The translations under genes and the position numbers were made by a program. 64,000 nt of DNA from Melioribacteraceae bacterium. Lineage in GTDB: Bacteria > Bacteroidota > Ignavibacteria > Ignavibacteriales > Melioribacteraceae. Below the pieces are notes generated by a model. That model made no database searches, was not told where the DNA came from, and worked only from the letters and a program-made list of their open reading frames with translations. The stretch's first letter is position 1. Each line of letters starts with the position of its first letter. Shown piece by piece: positions 14,835-29,530 of the stretch. Location of the stretch: positions 62,001 to 126,000 of the forward strand of contig JAIPBD010000005.1 in the NCBI GenBank assembly GCA_021739765.1, given 5' to 3'.

Positions 14835-15677
14835 TTGAACGATAAAGAGCAAGCATACCGCCAAGCGACAAAAATAGCTAAATCCCATTACGAGAATTTT
14901 CCGGTCGTTTCAATATTTGTCCCTAAAGAGTTACGCAAACATGTCGCTGTGATTTATATGTTTGCGAGGGAGGCCGATGATCTTGCAGACGAGGGGAATG
15001 AATCGGCGGAAATAAAATTAAAGAAACTTGATCTTTATGCATCAAAATTATCGGAATCGTTAAAAGGTGACGCAGTAAATCCCTTTTGGAAAGCCTTAAA
15101 TTTTACGGTAATCGATAAAAAATTATCTCCCCAATACTTATTTGATTTGTTAGATGCTTTTAAGCAAGATCTTGTAAAAACCAGATATACGGATTCTGAA
15201 GAGTTATATGATTATTGCAAACGATCTGCTAATCCTGTTGGCAGATTAATTTTAGAATTATATAATATCAGAGATGAAAATCTCAATCGCCTTTCTGATA
15301 AAATCTGCACCGCGTTACAAATCACAAATTTTATTCAAGATGTTTCGATCGATCTTGCAAAGGGCAGAATATACATTCCGAACGAAAATCAAACGAAATT
15401 TGGTGTGAGCGAGGCTGATTTTCAATTAAAGAAATCTGGTGAAAATTTTAAAATGCTTATCCAATCGGAAACAGAATCGCTTTTAATGCTATATGATGAG
15501 GGGAAGGAATTGATTGATTACCTTCCGATTCCACTGAATAAACAAATAAAGTGGACAATCAACGGCGGTGAAAAAATATTGAAAAAAATAAGAGAAATTG
15601 ATTATGATGTATTAAATTACAGACCAAAACTGACGAAGTGGGAATATTTTACAATCGGGTTAAAAGCATTATTCTAA
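14835..15677 (+). CDS. hpnC: Squalene synthase HpnC
   Basis: A 280-residue trans-isoprenyl diphosphate synthase of the squalene/phytoene synthase family. The two Mg2+-binding aspartate motifs are READDLADEG and QDVSIDLAKG. Together with the next two genes the order matches hpnC-hpnD-hpnE, which convert two farnesyl diphosphates to squalene: HpnD makes presqualene diphosphate, HpnC makes hydroxysqualene, HpnE reduces it. The start is a TTG (14835); the TAA stop is immediately followed by the ATG of hpnD. A carotenoid (CrtB-like) role is the main alternative, but the three-gene set makes squalene more likely. Confidence 0.85.
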   Translation: MNDKEQAYRQATKIAKSHYENFPVVSIFVPKELRKHVAVIYMFAREADDLADEGNESAEIKLKKLDLYASKLSESLKGDAVNPFWKALNFTVIDKKLSPQYLFDLLDAFKQDLVKTRYTDSEELYDYCKRSANPVGRLILELYNIRDENLNRLSDKICTALQITNFIQDVSIDLAKGRIYIPNENQTKFGVSEADFQLKKSGENFKMLIQSETESLLMLYDEGKELIDYLPIPLNKQIKWTINGGEKILKKIREIDYDVLNYRPKLTKWEYFTIGLKALF

Positions 15678-16520
15678 ATGAACGATCAGGCAAAAGAAAT
15701 AGCGAAAAATAGCAAAAGCAGCTTTTATTATGCTTTTAGTTTGTTACCGCCCGATAAAAGGGACGCAATGAACACTGTCTATGCTTTTTGCCGAAAAACA
15801 GATGATATCGTTGATGACGGATTGGAACCGAATGATATTAAATATGAAAATCTACACAAATGGCGCCTCGAATTAGAACGTTCAATCTATGGCAAATCAG
15901 ATTATATTTTATTTAATAAACTCTCCGGAGCCATAAAACAATTTAACATCCCAATCGATCCTTTCTTCGATTTGATTAGAGGGATGGAGATGGACCTTCA
16001 AAAAAACCGTTACCTAAAATTTGAAGACTTGGTTGAATATTGCTACAGAGTTGCCTCAACTGTTGGATTAATGTGTATTGAAATTTTTGGTTATAAGCAC
16101 AAATCAGCACACGATTTTGCGGTAAATCTCGGATTGGCCTTACAACTGACGAACATAATTCGAGATGTTAAAGTCGATGCCGACAACGATAGAATATATC
16201 TGCCTCAAGAAGATCTCGAAAAATTCGGATATTCTGAAAAAGATATCTTTGAGAATACATACAATCAGAATTTTCAAGACTTGATGAAACACGAATCCCT
16301 GCGTGCAAAAAGGTTTTTTGTGAAAGCTAATTCGTCACTCGATTTTGAAGATAAGCCGGCGATGTTTGCCGCTCGAGCAATGCAGCACATCTATTATAAA
16401 CTTCTAAAAAGAATTGAATACGAAAACTATAATGTTTATGAGCAAAAAATTCGTGTTCCCACGCTTGAAAAAGCAGCGATTTCTATAGGTGTTTGGGCAA
16501 AATATAGTTTAGTGTATTGA
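15678..16520 (+). CDS. hpnD: Presqualene diphosphate synthase HpnD
   Basis: A 280-residue paralogue of the preceding protein with the motifs RKTDDIVDDG and RDVKVDADNDRIYLP. In the HpnCDE route this enzyme joins two farnesyl diphosphates into presqualene diphosphate. It begins on the base after the hpnC stop and its TGA stop overlaps the ATG of hpnE by one base, so translation of all three is coupled. Assignment of D versus C rests on gene order and on the longer conserved core here (SSFYYAFSLLPPDKRDAM). Confidence 0.85.
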   Translation: MNDQAKEIAKNSKSSFYYAFSLLPPDKRDAMNTVYAFCRKTDDIVDDGLEPNDIKYENLHKWRLELERSIYGKSDYILFNKLSGAIKQFNIPIDPFFDLIRGMEMDLQKNRYLKFEDLVEYCYRVASTVGLMCIEIFGYKHKSAHDFAVNLGLALQLTNIIRDVKVDADNDRIYLPQEDLEKFGYSEKDIFENTYNQNFQDLMKHESLRAKRFFVKANSSLDFEDKPAMFAARAMQHIYYKLLKRIEYENYNVYEQKIRVPTLEKAAISIGVWAKYSLVY

Positions 16521-17824
16521 TGCCGAAATGTTTAGTAATCGGTGGGGGAATCGCTGGACTCTCCGCCGCCGTTCATCTCTCAAGACAAAATATCGAAGTC
16601 ACTTTACTCGAAGCTTCTCCAAAATTAGGGGGCCGGGCCTACTCCTATTGGGATAATTCATTAAACATCGAAATTGATAACGGTCAGCATATAATGATGT
16701 CTTGTTATCATGATACGATTGAATTTTTGAAAATTATCGGAGCCCGCGAGAATATTTACGTACAAGATTATCTGAGCATTTGCTACAAGGATAAATCCGG
16801 GAAAGAGTATTTCTTAAATGCTGATAAGATGTTTTATCCATTCAATTTAATAATTGCCCTCCTTCGATTTGATGCCATCCCGATTCTTAATCGCATCTCG
16901 ATTTTATCTTTACTGGTAAAGATAAAATTCGGCAAAAAACCAAAAGCCGAGCAAACCGTTAAAGAGTGGTTATTGGCTAATAAACAATCCGAGAGCAGTA
17001 TAAAGTATTTTTGGGAGATAATCGCGATCGGAACCCTAAACACTAATATTGATGATGCTCAGGCGTTGTTGTTTTTTAATGTTTTGAATGAAATCTTTAA
17101 TAAAGGCAACGCCAATACAAAAATCATTATTCCGAAAATTGGATTGAGCCGGATGTATAGTGATGACGCCAAAAAATTTATTGAATTAAATGGTGGGAAT
17201 ATTTTATTTCCCGAGCGGGTTCTTGAAATTAAAACATGTGGTGATAATGTCTGCGAGGTGATTACCACTCAAAAATCCTACACAGATTTTGATTTTATTA
17301 TTTCTTCAATTCCATACTTCGCGGTGGAAAAACTAAATGCCAATTTAGTCTTCCCTGAAGAATTAATGATGAATTATTCCCCGATTATCACAATACATAT
17401 TGTGTTAAGAGAAAATAATTTCTCAAAAAAGTTTTATGGATTATTTGATTCAAAATTGCACTGGGTGTTCAACAATGGTACTCATCTTTCAGTTGTTTCA
17501 AGCGCAGCTGATGAGCTGAACTCCTTAACCCCTGATGAGCTTGCAGAATATACATTTTCGGAATTAGAGAAATTTTTTATTATATTCCAACAAGACCTTA
17601 TTGTCGATTATAAAGTTATCCGGGAAAAAAGAGCTACCTTTAAACCCGGCTTTAAAACAGAGCGACAAAGAACAATGATAAGATCGAATTATAATAATTT
17701 TGATGTTGCGGGTGACTGGGCAAACACCGGGCTCCCGGCAACAATTGAAGGTGCTGTCAGAAGTGGTAAGTCCGCCGCTGAGCGATTGATGAAAAAAATA
17801 AACGGAAATAGTTTAGTGGATTAA
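16520..17824 (+). CDS. hpnE: Hydroxysqualene dehydroxylase HpnE
   Basis: A 434-residue FAD-dependent amine-oxidase-fold enzyme. The dinucleotide-binding motif LVIGGGIAGLSAAVHL is at the N-terminus and the second FAD signature GDWANTGLPATIEGAVRSG closes the C-terminus, exactly as in HpnE and related phytoene-desaturase-like proteins. In this context it reduces hydroxysqualene to squalene. I start at the ATG at 16520, which overlaps the hpnD TGA (TGATG), rather than the in-frame TTG three bases before. No squalene-hopene cyclase follows; the next gene is citrate synthase 28 bp downstream. Confidence 0.85.
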   Translation: MPKCLVIGGGIAGLSAAVHLSRQNIEVTLLEASPKLGGRAYSYWDNSLNIEIDNGQHIMMSCYHDTIEFLKIIGARENIYVQDYLSICYKDKSGKEYFLNADKMFYPFNLIIALLRFDAIPILNRISILSLLVKIKFGKKPKAEQTVKEWLLANKQSESSIKYFWEIIAIGTLNTNIDDAQALLFFNVLNEIFNKGNANTKIIIPKIGLSRMYSDDAKKFIELNGGNILFPERVLEIKTCGDNVCEVITTQKSYTDFDFIISSIPYFAVEKLNANLVFPEELMMNYSPIITIHIVLRENNFSKKFYGLFDSKLHWVFNNGTHLSVVSSAADELNSLTPDELAEYTFSELEKFFIIFQQDLIVDYKVIREKRATFKPGFKTERQRTMIRSNYNNFDVAGDWANTGLPATIEGAVRSGKSAAERLMKKINGNSLVD

Positions 17825-17852
17825 AAACAAATTATAATTATGGAGGTTTCCG

Positions 17853-19160
17853 ATGTCACAATATCTAAAACAAAAATTATTTGAAAAAATTGAGGAATGG
17901 CGCCCACGAACTACGAGATTGCTTAAGGAGTATGGTGATGTAAAAGCCGGTGAAGTTACTATTCAGCAGATAATAGGTGGGATGAGAGGCGTAAAAAGTT
18001 TAACAACGGATATTTCATATCTCGATCCGATGGAAGGAATCAGATTCCGTGGGTTTACAATTCCTGAGACTCTGGAAAAATTGCCTAAAGTTCCCGGAAG
18101 CGAGATGCCATACGTTGAAGGATTTTTCTATCTCCTTCTTACCGGTGAGGTTCCAACAGAAAAAGAGGTTGAAGAGGTTCACGAAGAATTTAACAAAAGG
18201 AAAATGGTTCCGGAGTACGTTTTTGATGTTTTAAGAGCGATGCCGGAAGATTCTCATCCAATGGCGATGTTCTCTGCCGCTGTCGTTTCGCTGCAAAAGG
18301 AATCCGTTTTTGTTCAGAGATATAACGAAGGCATGAACAAGATGGATTATTGGGATCCTGCTTATGAAGATGCACTAAACCTACTTGCCAAATTACCTCA
18401 AATCGCGGCTTTCATCTACAGATACAAATACAAAAACAAAGATATAATTGCCCCAGACGCGAATCTTGATTTGGGAGGTAACTTTGCTCATATGATGGGA
18501 ATTCAACCTCCTTATGATGATGTGGCCAGGTTATATTTCATAATTCACAGTGATCATGAGAGCGGAAACGTGAGCGCTCATACCGGGCACCTTGTAGGCA
18601 GTGCTTTGTCCGATATGTATTTATCGATAAGTGCTATGCTTAACGGGTTAGCGGGACCATTGCATGGATTGGCAAATCAAGAAGTTTTGAGATGGATTCA
18701 AGGTGTGATGGAGCAGATGGGCGGAAAAGTTCCAACTGAAGTAGAGATGACGAAATTTGTTTGGGATACTTTAAATTCCGGGCAAGTAATTCCGGGATTT
18801 GGACATGCGGTTTTGAGAAAAACTGATCCCCGTTATCAAGCACAAAGAGATTTTTGTTTGAAACATTTACCCGATGATCCAATATTTAAATATGTAGATG
18901 TTTTATATAAAGTTACACCGCCAATTTTAGTTGAACAAGGCAAGGCGAAAAATCCATGGCCAAACGTAGACGCGCAATCCGGAGTAATTCAATGGCATTA
19001 TGGGTTGAGGGAATATGATTTTTATACGGTGCTATTTGGCGTCGGAAGAGCACTTGGCGTTTGTGCGAACCTCGTTTGGGATCGTGCATTAGGTTATCCG
19101 ATTGAAAGACCAAAATCATTGACTACCGCTATGTTGGAAGAAATAGCCGGAATTAAATAG
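17853..19160 (+). CDS. gltA: Citrate synthase, eukaryotic type
   Basis: A 435-residue citrate synthase that condenses acetyl-CoA and oxaloacetate. The catalytic histidines are in GPLHGLANQEVL and PGFGHAVLRKTDPR. The N-terminal block (IQQIIGGMRGVKSLTTDISY, RFRGFTIPE) and overall length resemble the mitochondrial-type enzyme more than E. coli GltA; such dimeric citrate synthases are known from several bacterial phyla. A strong ribosome-binding site GGAGG (17842-17846) lies six bases before the ATG. A clear intrinsic terminator follows the stop, ending the squalene/citrate transcription unit. Confidence 0.95.
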   Translation: MSQYLKQKLFEKIEEWRPRTTRLLKEYGDVKAGEVTIQQIIGGMRGVKSLTTDISYLDPMEGIRFRGFTIPETLEKLPKVPGSEMPYVEGFFYLLLTGEVPTEKEVEEVHEEFNKRKMVPEYVFDVLRAMPEDSHPMAMFSAAVVSLQKESVFVQRYNEGMNKMDYWDPAYEDALNLLAKLPQIAAFIYRYKYKNKDIIAPDANLDLGGNFAHMMGIQPPYDDVARLYFIIHSDHESGNVSAHTGHLVGSALSDMYLSISAMLNGLAGPLHGLANQEVLRWIQGVMEQMGGKVPTEVEMTKFVWDTLNSGQVIPGFGHAVLRKTDPRYQAQRDFCLKHLPDDPIFKYVDVLYKVTPPILVEQGKAKNPWPNVDAQSGVIQWHYGLREYDFYTVLFGVGRALGVCANLVWDRALGYPIERPKSLTTAMLEEIAGIK

Positions 19161-19183
19161 TCATTTAAGAAATTACCTTTTCC

Positions 19184-19215
19184 AAAGCCGTTCAAATGAA
19201 CGGCTTTTTCTTTTT
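19184..19215 (+). terminator. Intrinsic terminator after citrate synthase
   Basis: Perfect 10-bp stem AAAGCCGTTC (19184-19193) and GAACGGCTTT (19198-19207) with an AAAT loop, followed by TTCTTTTT. One of the cleanest terminators in the window. Confidence 0.9.
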
Positions 19216-19274
19216 AAATTGATTTTTAATTCATATTTTTTAGATAGTTCATCAAAAGTAACGCGGCGGGAAAT

Positions 19275-22200
19275 ATGCTCACTGATAATAAACAAAAAGA
19301 ACTGTTGAAGGAATATGAATCGATTCGAGATCAATTTTTTGCCGGTAAATCATCTCTCGAAGAAAAAGAGTTAGAAGATCTTGTATTCCGTTTCATTCAT
19401 GAGTTGGAAGGAATCTATCAACGCAAATTATTCTTCGAAAATGAAGAAGCAATTAAAATCTGGAGAGATATTTTCGAATCCGCCCTTCCTTCAAGAATTG
19501 CTCATTCGTTGCTCGAAAGAATCGAACCCAATGTGATGTATAGCTTCGGCAAGTATCTCAACGATTTACTTATTGAGGGGAAAAAGGATAATGAGTTCAC
19601 AAGAAAAATTGCTCATTCATTTCTCGATTTAATCCGATTCCCGGTTTTCCTCGTAAATATTTATGAAAATCCTAAATGGGAAGCCTTAATTTTTGAAATT
19701 CTCAGATCTTCTCAATTTACAATACCTGTTCTTTTTGAACAAAGATTAAACTATTACTCCAATAAACCGTTATTCACAACAATTAGAAACAACAAAACGA
19801 CATCATTAAAATGGAGTGATGCCGCAGCTAGAATTGAGACTTACTCCGATGCCATTTATACGTATCTGAAAGGCAATGATATTATCGATTCAAAAGTCGC
19901 GTTTTTAACAGATAATTCGCTAAAAATGGCTTTGTTGGATTTAGCCTGTCTAACCTCGGGAATTGTAAACGTTATGCTCCCCGCAAATTCAGTTTCTGAA
20001 CATATCAAGTTTATCCTGAATGAAACTGAAACACAGTTAATATTTCTCTCGGATGAGAAACAACTCGCAAAAGTAAAATCAATAAAAGCGAGCCTCCCAA
20101 ATCTAAAGCTGGCAATATTACTGGAAGGAAATAGCACCGAAGAATGGGTGATTTCTCTTAAATCTTTCGTAGATAATCGAGAGCACAATCTGGATAGTTT
20201 TATTCGCGACAGAAGAGATTCGATAAATATTGATGACCTTGCAACAATAATGTATACATCGGGTACAACCGGCGAGCCAAAAGGAATCATGTTTTCCCAG
20301 CAGAATATTGTTTATAAAAGATTTTGCAGGGCACTCGCTATTCCGCCAATCGGGGATAAGGATAAATTTTTAGCGTACCTGCCGTTATTTCATACTTTTG
20401 GCCGTTACTTGGAGATGATGGGCTCTGTTTTTTGGGGCGCCGAATATGTATTTATGGAAAATCCATCCGTTGATACAATGATCTCAAATATGCAATTAGT
20501 AAAACCTACAATTTTTATTAGTATCCCTAAAAAATGGTCGCAACTTTATGAAGAGATTTCAAAACTGATCGATCTTGAATTGGCCGAAGAGGAAAATATT
20601 CGTAATAAAGTAAACGAATTATCTGGAGGGAAACTTAAATGGGGATTGTCTGCAGCGGGATATTTATCTCCCGAAGTTTTTCAATTTTTCCAAAAATATG
20701 ATGTAGAGTTGATGAGCGGATTCGGAATGACAGAGGCAACCGGGGGAATCAGTATGACACCGCCGGGCGAGTATAAACCGAATTCATTGGGAAAGGAATT
20801 ACCTGGAATAGAAATGAAATTGGGTGACGACGGCGAATTGCTGATCCGCGGGCCATATGTTATGACGGGATATTACGGTGAAGATAAAAATGAGACTTTT
20901 ACCGATGGTTGGTTGCCCACGGGCGACATTATGCTGATGGATGAAAAGGGATATATCCAAATTATTGATCGAAAGAAAGAAATTTACAAGAACATTAAAG
21001 GGGAAACTATTGCCCCTCAAAAAATTGAAAATTTATTCCGTGATTTTGAAACAATAAAACAAGTGTTTTTGGTTGGGGATCATCGTCCATTTAACACGGC
21101 TTTAATTTATCCTGATCTGGAAAATGAAAATTCGGTGATTCGTGGTATGCAAGAAAACGAATTAAATGAATATTTCTCTTCTGTGATTGTTTCTGTAAAT
21201 ACATTTCTTGCACCTTTCGAACGCATTGTTGATTTCAGGATTATCGACCGTCTTTTTGCAAAAGAACATGGTGAGCTAACTGCGAAAGGTACATTCCGCA
21301 GAAGAATTATTGAAAAAAACTTCGAAAGTAAGATTGCGGAGATGTATGAAAAAACGCATACAATTCTAAAGATGGAAGGAACCGAACTTAGAATCCCTAA
21401 TTGGTTTTTACGTGAAATGGGATGTTTATCATCGGATATTTCAATAAAAGATTTCGAAATAAAAATAAGTAAAATAGAAAGATCATTAATAATTAAACGA
21501 ATTGAGGAAAATATATTTCGCGTTGGAAGTTATTTGTACGAAGTGAGGAAACATTACATTGACTTTCAACACTTTCTAATTAATCCCTCATACTGGCTGG
21601 GAAACAAAGAACTTTTCGATTTTACGTCGGATGCAATAATCCAGTGGCAAAGACATTCGAAAGAAGAGGACTCGATAATATTCAGGGGGCTGAATGAACA
21701 TCTGACAATAGAAACCTCGCTGACCGACAATCTAAAAGAAATACTTAGGGCTGGTGAGAATTCTATTTTTGGACTTCATCTCGCTGTGATGCATCTGCAA
21801 TCCAACGATTTTGAAAGGGCAAAATTGGGTATTGAATACTCGGAGCAAATTTTATCAGACGAAACCAGTAATGCCTATAAATTCGGACTGCAGTTTGTGA
21901 AAAGTGTGCAATTGAAGGCAGATATAAAAATAGTTCGAAAAACCTGTGCTCTCTGCTTGCGCCACATTGAACCTGATTCTATCTATAAAATACTTACTTC
22001 TTATTTGGAAAAATTCCCCAACCTAATTGAAGATGAAATAATTAATTCTTTCGTCGAACGCAAAGGTGACGAAGTATTAGAAATCATTAAAAAAATTCTT
22101 GAAGAAACTGTTCAGTTTAATTTAAACCATAGAAATGTGCCAAGTACATCAATCGCCGGTATGTTTAGAATTTTGGAAAGTTATTCCGTGCATCATCCGG

Positions 22201-24086
22201 CCAGCTATAAATTTATCAGACAAGTGATTGTTAAATATCAACTTATGAAGGATTGGCCTGAATTGGTCGAATTTGCCAATCAAGCCAGATTAAAAATTCA
22301 ATCCGGTTTTAGAGATTGGCTTGGTGTAAATCAGACCGTCGCCGTTGATCCCGAAACCGGGGAAGAATATGGCTGGAAAGATGTTATAATATTGGAAGAT
22401 AACATTGATTCTGACGATGGCAGGAGAATCACCGAAACTATCGAGAAAAGTTCGATTTTACGCGAAGCTGTATTTTTAATGTCTAAAGCTACCATTCTTA
22501 GACTTCACGCTATCCCTCCGGGTGGAATTTGGATTAGCAATCTAAGTTTTAGAGAAGACAGATCCGTATATAGAATTGCAATCCAGACCCGATTCTTCGG
22601 TTCTTTTGATCTCGTGTTTTATCTAAATAAAACTACTCCAAGGGAGCAAATTGAGGATGAAATTGAATGGCTAATTGTTTCCAATGCGCTGCCTTTAGAT
22701 AAAAAACTTGTAGGGCAGTTTGGCGGATATTGGGAGGAGTTTGGTGTTTGGTGTGAAGAATATATCTCGGGTGATTCGGTGCATCGTTCAATTCAGAGAC
22801 ATCTGCGCAAGAAGGAAAATTTAATTCGAAATCGTATGAGTTATATGTGGCCGTTTTTTATCTGGAATGCTGCTTCAGCGTACATGAACTTTTGGAAAAT
22901 TACCGGATTTAAAATTCAGCTTGCCGAACCTTCTTCGCTGCAAATTTCAGTTCCCTCACACGATTATCAAATTGGTACGCGATTGCTGTCCATCGGAAAT
23001 CGTGTTGAGTCGGATAAGATAGAAGTATTCTTCCAAAATTTTTATGATTCATTCGTTCCAAGAAATTTGAAAGAATTCGAAGAGCTTGATTCCAAAGATG
23101 TTTGGAAGTATATGTACGCCGGCGTAATTGATGCTCTCGGTAAAGAGGAAGGTTTGAAAGTTCTCAGAACTTACGAAAAATATTTGCTGGAAAATGAAGT
23201 AGATAGTGCTGCCTTAGAGAACCTTCAAAATTATCTTAATTATGTCACAACGTTCGGGTTTATTCCTAAGCAACTATATTTTGCGATCAAACGATTCCAC
23301 AGATGGACTTATTTGAACAAAAATGCAACTTACAATGCACAAGCAGATATGCTTTCAGAATTATACAGCACTTATATGCTGGATTTCCTCGAAGATGAAT
23401 ATCCGGCTACAAGAGCAAGATTCTTTTTAGAGACCGTTTTTGCGGATTCTAACCAACATTTTACAAAAATATTAAGATCAATTATCTTACAACTTCGCAA
23501 GCGAGAAATTAACAGAGCTAAATCAATACAAATGATTTCCGATATCCAGACTGAAATTCAGTTAACCGAGAAGGAAGAATATTTTATTCCAAGATTAAGT
23601 TATCCGCATCTTAAATCATCCGATGACGCGGTAATAATTAAAGGTGTGGCAGAAGGTGAAGGAAAATCTAACCTGGTTGTCGAAGTTGAAGATTATGACG
23701 GACAGTCGTACTTAATTCGTAGACCAATTTCGCCGAAGGAAATTTCAAAATTGCATCAACTATTTATCTCTGCAAATCTGCTCGTGAATTTTAGACCTGA
23801 GCATAAATATTTGGTCGCAGTCTCCGAACGAGGATTTATTATCGGAGGTTTATTTTTTAATTATGTGGACGCTCATCACGTACACATGGATAAAATTGTT
23901 GTTTCGGATCGTTATAGAAGAAAGGGGATAAGTGAAGGATTAATGCGGGAGTTTTTCAGCAGATTAAAAGACAAAAAGGTTTCTGCGGTTTCAACCGGAT
24001 TTTTTAGACCCGAATACTTTTATAAATTCGGATTTAAGATCGAGAAGAAATACTCCGGACTCGTAAAAAATTTAGTTTCGGATTAA
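19275..24086 (+). CDS. Giant AMP-forming acyl-CoA ligase - unknown region - GNAT acyltransferase
   Basis: A single 1603-residue frame with no internal stop. Residues 1-160 are helical and unassigned. About 165-690 is an AMP-forming acyl-CoA ligase: YTSGTTGEPKG (327-337), TGD (549-551), DRKKE (565-569) and a candidate catalytic lysine in AKGTFRR (Lys671); the core resembles long-chain acyl-CoA synthetases. About 700-1480 matches no family I recognise; it is helical to about 1010, then a mixed alpha/beta block rich in aromatics (GQFGGYWEEFGVWCEEY). About 1490-1603 is a GNAT domain with the acetyl-CoA loop YRRKGIS (1547-1553). It stands alone between a terminator and pyrG. The layout suggests making an activated acyl group and transferring it within one polypeptide; substrate and acceptor are unknown. 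Confidence 0.85.
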   Translation: MLTDNKQKELLKEYESIRDQFFAGKSSLEEKELEDLVFRFIHELEGIYQRKLFFENEEAIKIWRDIFESALPSRIAHSLLERIEPNVMYSFGKYLNDLLIEGKKDNEFTRKIAHSFLDLIRFPVFLVNIYENPKWEALIFEILRSSQFTIPVLFEQRLNYYSNKPLFTTIRNNKTTSLKWSDAAARIETYSDAIYTYLKGNDIIDSKVAFLTDNSLKMALLDLACLTSGIVNVMLPANSVSEHIKFILNETETQLIFLSDEKQLAKVKSIKASLPNLKLAILLEGNSTEEWVISLKSFVDNREHNLDSFIRDRRDSINIDDLATIMYTSGTTGEPKGIMFSQQNIVYKRFCRALAIPPIGDKDKFLAYLPLFHTFGRYLEMMGSVFWGAEYVFMENPSVDTMISNMQLVKPTIFISIPKKWSQLYEEISKLIDLELAEEENIRNKVNELSGGKLKWGLSAAGYLSPEVFQFFQKYDVELMSGFGMTEATGGISMTPPGEYKPNSLGKELPGIEMKLGDDGELLIRGPYVMTGYYGEDKNETFTDGWLPTGDIMLMDEKGYIQIIDRKKEIYKNIKGETIAPQKIENLFRDFETIKQVFLVGDHRPFNTALIYPDLENENSVIRGMQENELNEYFSSVIVSVNTFLAPFERIVDFRIIDRLFAKEHGELTAKGTFRRRIIEKNFESKIAEMYEKTHTILKMEGTELRIPNWFLREMGCLSSDISIKDFEIKISKIERSLIIKRIEENIFRVGSYLYEVRKHYIDFQHFLINPSYWLGNKELFDFTSDAIIQWQRHSKEEDSIIFRGLNEHLTIETSLTDNLKEILRAGENSIFGLHLAVMHLQSNDFERAKLGIEYSEQILSDETSNAYKFGLQFVKSVQLKADIKIVRKTCALCLRHIEPDSIYKILTSYLEKFPNLIEDEIINSFVERKGDEVLEIIKKILEETVQFNLNHRNVPSTSIAGMFRILESYSVHHPASYKFIRQVIVKYQLMKDWPELVEFANQARLKIQSGFRDWLGVNQTVAVDPETGEEYGWKDVIILEDNIDSDDGRRITETIEKSSILREAVFLMSKATILRLHAIPPGGIWISNLSFREDRSVYRIAIQTRFFGSFDLVFYLNKTTPREQIEDEIEWLIVSNALPLDKKLVGQFGGYWEEFGVWCEEYISGDSVHRSIQRHLRKKENLIRNRMSYMWPFFIWNAASAYMNFWKITGFKIQLAEPSSLQISVPSHDYQIGTRLLSIGNRVESDKIEVFFQNFYDSFVPRNLKEFEELDSKDVWKYMYAGVIDALGKEEGLKVLRTYEKYLLENEVDSAALENLQNYLNYVTTFGFIPKQLYFAIKRFHRWTYLNKNATYNAQADMLSELYSTYMLDFLEDEYPATRARFFLETVFADSNQHFTKILRSIILQLRKREINRAKSIQMISDIQTEIQLTEKEEYFIPRLSYPHLKSSDDAVIIKGVAEGEGKSNLVVEVEDYDGQSYLIRRPISPKEISKLHQLFISANLLVNFRPEHKYLVAVSERGFIIGGLFFNYVDAHHVHMDKIVVSDRYRRKGISEGLMREFFSRLKDKKVSAVSTGFFRPEYFYKFGFKIEKKYSGLVKNLVSD

Positions 24087-24166
24087 TCTTAAACTATAAT
24101 TTCAAGACTAACGGATAAAAATTCATTTTATGCAATTATTTTTTAGATGGGGATAGAACTTTTTCC

Positions 24167-24174
24167 TATCTTTG
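24167..24174 (+). promoter_or_regulatory. Possible -7 element of pyrG
   Basis: TATCTTTG matches the Bacteroidota TAnnTTTG element and lies 22 bp before the pyrG ATG. No clear TTG is found at the right distance upstream, so this is weaker than the other promoters listed. Confidence 0.4.
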
Positions 24175-24187
24175 CTAAACCATTTGA

Positions 24188-27306
<3,119 letters not shown>

Positions 27307-27385
27307 GTTTATTTTTATTCATTTTTGTGCCAAAATTGAATATTACACTCCTTTTAGATAAATTCGAAGATTAGATCGGAAAAAT

Positions 27386-27997
27386 ATGTTCAATGTAGCT
27401 GTATTCGTCTCCGGGAGAGGTTCAAACCTAAAAGCAATCATCGATCATTTTAGTAATAAGCCGGGCATCATTAGTATCGTAGGTGTAATTAGCGATAGAG
27501 ACAGTTGTTTAGCCCTCGAATTAGCAAGGTTTCACAATATCCCAACTTTTATTCTGGATAATTCGAATCAGCAATCATCCTATTCTCAATTAAAAAATAA
27601 TTTACTTAATGCAGATACAGATCTGATAGTGCTTGCGGGTTTCCTTAAAAAAATTCCCGATAGTTTTGTGGATGATTTTAAAAATAAAATCATCAATATC
27701 CATCCGGCGCTTCTACCATCATTCGGTGGAAAAGGTATGTATGGTGAAAATGTTCATAAAGCTGTTTTTGCAAAGTCATGTAAAGTTTCCGGGCCAACTA
27801 TTCATTTTGTTGATAAAGTTTATGATAATGGAATTATAATCGCTCAAAGGGCGGTTGATATCTCGGATACAAAAAGTTGGGATGAGATTGCGGTGCGTGT
27901 TTTACAAAAAGAGCATGAGTTGTTACCCGAAGTTATTGAAAAATTCGCGAATGATAAAATTCGAATTCAAGGTTCGAGGGTTGTCTATTCCACTTAG
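27386..27997 (+). CDS. purN: Phosphoribosylglycinamide formyltransferase
   Basis: A 203-residue GAR transformylase (third step of purine synthesis, 10-formyl-THF dependent). SGRGSNLKAII near the N-terminus binds the phosphoribosyl group; INIHPALLPSFGGKGMYG carries the catalytic histidine region, with VSGPTIHFVDKVYDNGIII downstream providing the catalytic aspartate. It lies 15 bp before purH, so consecutive formyl-transfer steps of the pathway are co-expressed. Confidence 0.95.
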   Translation: MFNVAVFVSGRGSNLKAIIDHFSNKPGIISIVGVISDRDSCLALELARFHNIPTFILDNSNQQSSYSQLKNNLLNADTDLIVLAGFLKKIPDSFVDDFKNKIINIHPALLPSFGGKGMYGENVHKAVFAKSCKVSGPTIHFVDKVYDNGIIIAQRAVDISDTKSWDEIAVRVLQKEHELLPEVIEKFANDKIRIQGSRVVYST

Positions 27998-28012
27998 TTT
28001 GAAGGAATTAAA

Positions 28013-29530
28013 TTGAATAAGTATGCTTTAATAAGCGTTTCAGATAAAACAAATATTGCGGATTTCGCAAATAGATTAAATGATTGCGGATATAAGATTC
28101 TGGCCACCGGAAATACAGCAAAAATTCTAATAGAAAATAAAATTGAATGTATTGAAATAGCAGATTTTACAAATTCTCCCGAAATTTTCGGCGGAAGAGT
28201 TAAAACTCTCCATCCAAAAATATTTGGCGGAATTTTATACCGAAGAGATAATAAATCTGATTTAACGGAAGCACTCGAAAATGAAATTGTGACGATTGAT
28301 ATTGTTTGTGTCAATTTATATCCATTTCCGAAAGTTGTTCATCGGCGCGACATCAACCGTCAGGAAAAAATTGAAAATATTGATATTGGCGGTCCGAGTT
28401 TAATACGAGCCGCGGCAAAAAATCATGCTTATGTTTCTGTTCTGACTAATCCGGATCAATACAATTCTTTTCTGGATGAATTGGTTGCCGGCGAAGTCAG
28501 TCCCACAACAAAAGAAAAATTAGCCACTGCCGCGTTTGCGCACACTTCCTTTTATGACACTCTCATTGCTGATTATTTTGAAAAAGAATTTAGTGTTGCA
28601 AAATCTCATCTTAGAATAAATTCTCCTCTTCAAAATTCCCTGCGCTACGGTGAAAATCCGCATCAGACTGCCAATCTTTATGGTGATTTTTATAAATATT
28701 TCGAAATTGTGCATGGCAAGGAGCTCAGTTATAATAATATTATTGACTTAGTTGCAGGCGTAGAGTTATCTGAAGAATTAGGCGCTAATTCGGCGACAAT
28801 CATTAAGCATACAAATCCATGCGGTGCAGCGATCGGCGAAAATATTTTTTCTGCTTATAAAAAGGCACTTTCGTGCGATCCGGTCTCAGCTTTTGGTGGG
28901 ATAGTATGTTTTCAGAATGAAGTGGAAGCGGATCTTGCCGTAAAATTAAACGAATTATTTCTCGAAATAATTTCTGCTCCGTCTTTCACAACCGAAGCGT
29001 TGGAAATATTAAAAAAGAAAAAGAATAGAAGAATAGTAATTCAAAAAGAAAAACTACCTGACGAGTATTCAAAATTTAAAGATATTCCGGGTGGCGTAAT
29101 TTCCCAAACGAATGATAATTCGAACGTAGATAAAATTGAGTTCACCTGTGTATCCAAAATTGCAATCGACAACAAACAATTGGAAGACATTAAATTTGCA
29201 TGGAAAGTTTGTAAACACACAAAATCGAATGCCATTGTTTTTGTAAAAGATCTAAAAGCGATCGGAGTTGGAGCTGGCCAAATGTCAAGGGTTGATTCCA
29301 CCATACTGGCGGCGAGCAAAGCTCGGAAATTTGGTCATGATATAAGCGGCGGTGTTGCGGCTTCGGATGCTTTTTTCCCATTTCCGGACGGTGTAGAAGA
29401 GATAGCTTCACACGGAATTAAAGCTATAGTGCAGCCGGGTGGATCAGTTAGGGATGATGAAGTGATTGACGCAGTTGATAAACTTGAACTGGCAATGTTA
29501 TTCACAGGAATAAGAAATTTTAAACATTAA
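28013..29530 (+). CDS. purH: Bifunctional AICAR transformylase / IMP cyclohydrolase
   Basis: A 505-residue PurH catalysing the last two steps of IMP synthesis. The N-terminal MGS-like cyclohydrolase begins ALISVSDKTNIADFA; the C-terminal transformylase has the KHTNPCGAAIG signature and ends with the conserved GIKAIVQPGGSVRDDEVI and MLFTGIRNFKH. Start is a TTG at 28013 preceded by GAAGGAA. It is followed by mreB after only 8 bp, so the purine and cell-shape genes may share transcripts. Confidence 0.96.
   Translation: MNKYALISVSDKTNIADFANRLNDCGYKILATGNTAKILIENKIECIEIADFTNSPEIFGGRVKTLHPKIFGGILYRRDNKSDLTEALENEIVTIDIVCVNLYPFPKVVHRRDINRQEKIENIDIGGPSLIRAAAKNHAYVSVLTNPDQYNSFLDELVAGEVSPTTKEKLATAAFAHTSFYDTLIADYFEKEFSVAKSHLRINSPLQNSLRYGENPHQTANLYGDFYKYFEIVHGKELSYNNIIDLVAGVELSEELGANSATIIKHTNPCGAAIGENIFSAYKKALSCDPVSAFGGIVCFQNEVEADLAVKLNELFLEIISAPSFTTEALEILKKKKNRRIVIQKEKLPDEYSKFKDIPGGVISQTNDNSNVDKIEFTCVSKIAIDNKQLEDIKFAWKVCKHTKSNAIVFVKDLKAIGVGAGQMSRVDSTILAASKARKFGHDISGGVAASDAFFPFPDGVEEIASHGIKAIVQPGGSVRDDEVIDAVDKLELAMLFTGIRNFKH

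Follow-up and report, generated by a model that had tools for sequence, protein, structure and literature searches.

A fusion of an AMP-forming ligase, a kinase-fold domain and a GNAT domain in a Melioribacteraceae bacterium and its relatives, a candidate acyltransferase near citrate synthase

The available portions of two classifications (PMC8556138, PMC6456759) distinguish five types of bacterial GNAT protein acetyltransferase; in the types linked to a synthetase, the NDP-forming domain is inactive. Pat has an inactive synthetase domain that binds acetyl-CoA, according to the same portion of PMC8556138. In the AcuA-AcsA system, a ligase and its GNAT are present in one complex and AcuA acetylates K549 of AcsA, as the available part of its description reports (PMC11255334). 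The stretch of DNA described here, called the window, has 64,000 nucleotides and comes from contig JAIPBD010000005.1 of a Melioribacteraceae bacterium. It contains a gene (19275..24086, plus strand, as are all features below) that encodes a fusion protein of 1603 residues, in which an AMP-forming acyl-CoA ligase is followed by a kinase-fold domain and by a C-terminal GNAT domain.

The fusion protein is possibly a metabolic-sensor protein acyltransferase (probability about 0.4) that makes acyl-CoA or is gated by it and acts at the acetyl-CoA/citrate node, in the manner of Pat or AcuA-AcsA and with other parts. The observations at the base of this reading are the single frame, its domains, the conservation at both ends and a citrate synthase gene as recurrent neighbour.

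Domains and motif state of the fusion protein

The frame starts with an ATG at 19275, has no internal stop and ends with its stop codon at 24086, and its Pfam matches at both ends agree with the initial annotation, which described a ligase and a C-terminal GNAT in one frame; the motifs that it had pointed out, YTSGTTGEPKG, TGD, DRKKE, K671 and YRRKGIS, are all found in the translation where it placed them. The large ligase domain (residues 161-534; 19755..20876) matches AMP-binding (PF00501, E 1.3e-58) and the C-terminal ligase domain (residues 574-694; 20994..21356) matches AMP-binding_C_3 (PF23562, E 2.2e-13, 51.1 bits against a cut-off of 20.8). The top NCBIfam matches name fatty-acid CoA ligases, and the best 25 of 103 all score below their own cut-offs; from its signature we take the ligase to be of the long-chain synthetase type. 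The Pfam scan of the protein (E up to 1) gives no CoA-binding, Succ_CoA_lig or ATP-grasp family, and the contrast drawn earlier with Pat, which has an NDP-forming part, is borne out.

The GNAT domain (residues 1467-1603; 23673..24083) is recognized both by fold and by profile, with Acetyltransf_1 at residues 1505-1587 (E 5.9e-6, 27.0 bits against a cut-off of 20.7). The chain is more than the two ends of the initial annotation, as about 770 residues with a kinase-fold domain and helical parts separate the ligase from the GNAT. These are a small beta part followed by a helical array (residues ~700-1035; 21372..22379), which has no Pfam match over cut-off, a protein-kinase fold (residues ~1043-1312; 22401..23210), found by fold searches that re-align the best 1000 Foldseek chains, and a helical linker (residues ~1313-1450; 23211..23624).

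Residue conservation was counted in 74 aligned rows with a length of 1500 residues or more, several of which are near-copies of one another. The ligase residues T328, G330, G333, K336, H373, E487, D551, R566, K572 and K671, all ten that were checked, are invariant, among them the checked positions of the ANL ligase motifs SGTTG..K, TE, TGD and DR. The canonical position of the A10 lysine is residue 673, with Thr in 69 rows and Ser in 5, and the invariant Lys, K671, stands two residues before it (K671-G672-T673; 21285..21293). This position is taken from the alignment with L003, a ligase of the long-chain type from the window's genome; the alignment is gap-free through A10 and has 33% identity over 545 columns. 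K671 lies in the context AKGT in the window, while the corresponding context is PKTRSGK in L001, which from its sequence we take to be the Acs of this genome. A KGT form of A10 occurs in fungal enzymes. A search of the PDB with the A10 stretch gave one match, at chance level. On contig C11 of the window's genome, two AMP-binding matches (L002 and L006) are separated by about 3 kb; each is reported within an open frame of 1947 residues, and they probably belong to one gene.

In the kinase-fold part, the canonical catalytic residues are not conserved: a beta-3 Lys is present in at most 28 of the 74 rows at any position from 1110 to 1120, the catalytic-loop Asp at 1218 in 32, and a DFG-type Asp in at most 7 at any position from 1239 to 1246. 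D1230 (22962..22964) is invariant, yet it lies outside the canonical kinase sites, which were placed by eye.

The acetyl-CoA loop of the GNAT, R-R-K-G-I-S in the window (residues 1548-1553; 23916..23933), departs from the pattern R/Q-x-x-G-x-G/A, whose last position is Gly or Ala by rule in the available part of PMC8556138. Residue 1553 is Ser in 54 rows, Ala in 14 and Gly in 6. Of the loop residues, whose lack in most members the initial annotation had named as evidence against its proposal, R1548 and G1551 are kept in 72 rows each. G1524 and G1525 are invariant. The displaced A10 lysine and the loop that ends in Ser are two oddities against a simple reading in which both ends are functional. 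In a divergent clade of fusions (L031-L034 and L072-L074), which have 26-28% identity over A1, the loop is R-G-R-G-x-G in 5 of 7 rows and the end motif is different; the four genomes of this clade sampled at order level have an ordinary citrate synthase, 32-33% identical to that of the window, and no common neighbour was noticed in the six loci compared by eye.

The citrate synthase neighbour and the proposed function

Contrary to the initial annotation, which held that nothing in the neighbourhood explains the gene, 41 of 88 loci have a citrate synthase gene near the fusion. It is upstream on the same strand in 28 loci and downstream in 13 (4 on the same strand and 9 on the opposite one). The two genes are separated by no more than 650 bp in 34 of the 41 loci and by 5.8 kb at the widest, as calculated from start points that were extrapolated along the alignment. 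In the window it is located upstream (17853..19160) and encodes a eukaryote-like citrate (Si)-synthase (NF007128, 736.7 bits, cut-off 344), which scores 588.7 bits with TIGR01793, under the cut-off of 619.75. In a FastTree tree, with rows of uneven composition and L156 left out as too short, the upstream-type rows are in the Ignavibacteria side and 12 of the 13 downstream rows in a Gemmatimonadota/Acidobacteria clade, where no citrate synthase was seen in 7 of 19 rows. In a sample of 39 genomes of the same family or order, own genome included, the citrate synthase query has one match in each. A close citrate synthase (at least 71%) is present in 29 of them, which cover all 22 with a close fusion, and the remaining ten have no close fusion and four divergent ones.

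Several results weigh against a functional link with citrate synthase. A terminator-like hairpin (19184..19207; 10-bp stem, T run) parts the two genes in the window, a call that rests on its perfect stem, the scan as a whole giving 5 sites against 5.3 expected in shuffles. No citrate synthase was found in the searched flanking DNA of 47 of the 88 loci, many of them, though not all, cut by contig ends; this group takes in all nine loci with Calditrichota, Calditrichia, Calditrichaceae or Caldithrix in their titles and all seven loci of the divergent clade. Among 20 carrier genomes reached through named loci, citrate synthase matches are none in 3, one in 12 and two or three in 5. The lysines of citrate synthase do not separate cleanly between 57 carrier and seven non-carrier rows (largest difference 54% against 14%), and an acyl-CoA dehydrogenase, present in 39 of the 39 genomes, separates nothing. 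Finally, 13 relatives lack the fusion; the seven of them that have a close citrate synthase were inspected, and five keep the whole block, with a lytic transglycosylase gene (four) or a signal peptidase gene (one) in the slot of the fusion. The neighbourhood in Ignavibacteria may be explained by synteny alone, because these five relatives keep the block. The changed side and orientation in Gemmatimonadota and Acidobacteria are the part that synteny leaves unexplained.

The block extends over 14835-29530 in the window, and the five relatives (L219-L223) keep the order HpnC-HpnD-HpnE, citrate synthase, slot, pyrG, TPR gene, purN and purH. HpnC, HpnD and HpnE, presumably of squalene synthesis, as well as purN and purH, are named from a reading of their sequences. 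The CTP synthase gene pyrG (24197..25825) is the downstream neighbour of the fusion and belongs to a cluster found in 17 of 80 loci.

In the proposed acyltransferase, for which the activity of either end, the acid substrate, the acyl donor, the target and the role of the middle are all predictions, the N-terminal long-chain-type ligase would use ATP and CoA to activate a carboxylic acid, probably a fatty acid, and so make or sense acyl-CoA. The kinase-fold and helical middle may be a scaffold, or a relay for nucleotide or acyl-CoA, that docks the substrate protein. The C-terminal GNAT would take an acetyl or acyl group from CoA and place it on a lysine of a protein of the acetyl-CoA node; the recurrent neighbour makes citrate synthase the first candidate target, and K671 of the ligase itself is the second. 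Ligase and transferase would be permanently joined, unlike the AcuA-AcsA pair. The window's genome has a sirtuin, and no PatZ-type enzyme is found at either of its two PF13607 matches. A more specific version, in which an active fatty-acid ligase, a pseudokinase relay and a GNAT read the state of acid, ATP and acetyl-CoA and modify citrate synthase, perhaps also the protein's own K671, as a new class of acyltransferase architecture, is speculative and on balance improbable. If true, such an enzyme would set the entry of acetyl-CoA into the tricarboxylic acid cycle in Ignavibacteria, Gemmatimonadota and Acidobacteria.

Alternative readings and integrity of the fusion

The initial annotation proposed a channelling enzyme, in which the acyl group made by the ligase would be passed by the GNAT, without release, to a small amine or a protein, possibly giving an N-acylated metabolite or lipid. 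The motif residues kept at both ends and the kinship of the ligase with long-chain acyl-CoA synthetases (33% to L003 over the 545 columns) are consistent with it. So is the finding that the ends are not seen apart among the matches listed or in the 80 named loci, except in four split loci, at contig ends and in short weak matches. The putative HpnC, HpnD and HpnE genes upstream in part of Ignavibacteria, whose clusters are present in 17 and 18 of the 80 loci, also count in its favour, but the block is kept without the fusion as well and is not seen in the loci of other phyla. The ~770 residues between ligase and GNAT argue against channelling, and most structural neighbours of the GNAT whose substrate is given acetylate proteins or amino acids. 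Channelling is rather unlikely, although it stands best among the alternatives.

The ligase part could also be a sensor only, which would bind acyl-CoA, AMP or a fatty acid to gate the GNAT, the displaced A10 lysine having removed or weakened adenylation. Thr or Ser at the canonical position in all 74 rows points in this direction, and type I and II acetyltransferases offer a precedent, the NDP-forming domain of type I Pat being inactive in the available part of PMC8556138. In a pure sensor, some of the other checked ligase residues should have been lost, but these and K671 are invariant. This reading is improbable.

More doubtful is a self-braking ligase, in which high acetyl-CoA would lead the GNAT to acetylate a lysine of the ligase in the same chain, K671 or another, in the manner of AcuA with K549 of AcsA (PMC11255334, available part). 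The invariance of K671 would suit such a brake, and a sirtuin is present in 38 of the 39 genomes, that of the window included. However, K671 is off the canonical position and its context AKGT is unlike the PKTRSGK of L001.

The domain order is conserved among homologues, as the initial annotation had suggested could be checked, and it is not limited to one phylum. A relative of the fusion is present in 26 of the 39 genomes, 22 at 41% identity or more (2 of them cut by contig ends) and 4 at 29-31%. In the phylum draw, 22 of 395 genomes, own included, match a query made of the middle and the GNAT, a count that includes one genome with only a weak match of 76 residues, a second weak short match lying in a carrier. 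In Gemmatimonadota, 2 of 150 genomes drawn carry the fusion, and one of the two is the genome around which the draw was centred, which had been picked as a carrier. Named genomes were scanned with a single GNAT peptide pattern, and the scan covers the relatives that bear it; of its 87 matches 80 were kept, and their titles include Ignavibacteria, Melioribacteraceae, Bacteroidetes, Calditrichota, Gemmatimonadota, Acidobacteria, one Planctomycetota and few others. The fusion is one frame of at least 1500 residues in 66 of these 80 loci; 10 loci are cut by contig ends and 4 are split (L102, L107, L132 and L153), by sequencing error or decay, with two frames each and the break at four different places. 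Among the matches listed for the family/order and phylum samples, the middle occurs without both ends only at contig ends and in two weak short matches (E 3e-4). An assembly or frame artefact joining two genes, which the four split loci might suggest, has a negligible probability and is refuted by the relatives in 26 of 39 genomes and the 66 single-frame loci, 10 of the other 14 being cut by contig ends.

Comparison with known systems

The combination of an AMP-forming ligase, a kinase fold and a GNAT was not found in the available parts of the two classifications (PMC8556138, PMC6456759), and a literature search, covering titles and abstract openings of the top matches, did not find an AMP-forming ligase fused to a GNAT. 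Among known folds, the kinase-fold part comes closest to those of the Bud32/PRPK, Rio1 and choline kinase types and differs from them in having no conserved beta-3 Lys or DFG-type Asp and a catalytic-loop Asp in 32 of 74 rows. Long-chain fatty acyl-CoA synthetases share AMP-binding and AMP-binding_C_3 with the fusion, which aligns without gaps through A10 with L003, whereas it has Thr or Ser at the A10 lysine position, a Lys two residues earlier and about 900 additional C-terminal residues.

In AcuA-AcsA of Bacillus subtilis, too, a GNAT is assembled with an AMP-forming ligase (PMC11255334). The two are separate proteins there and AcsA is an acetyl-CoA synthetase, while the fusion is one chain with a long-chain-type ligase; the available part of PMC11255334 describes no kinase-fold part, and the lysine position differs from that of the fusion. 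Type I and II acetyltransferases (PatZ/SePat and SlPatA) have, like the fusion, a C-terminal GNAT after a synthetase-related domain. This domain is NDP-forming and inactive in them, and its place is taken in the fusion by an AMP-forming ligase with kept motif residues and a kinase-fold domain; a conserved, motif-complete chain of this kind would add to the known acetyltransferases a type whose sensor can also make the acyl donor.
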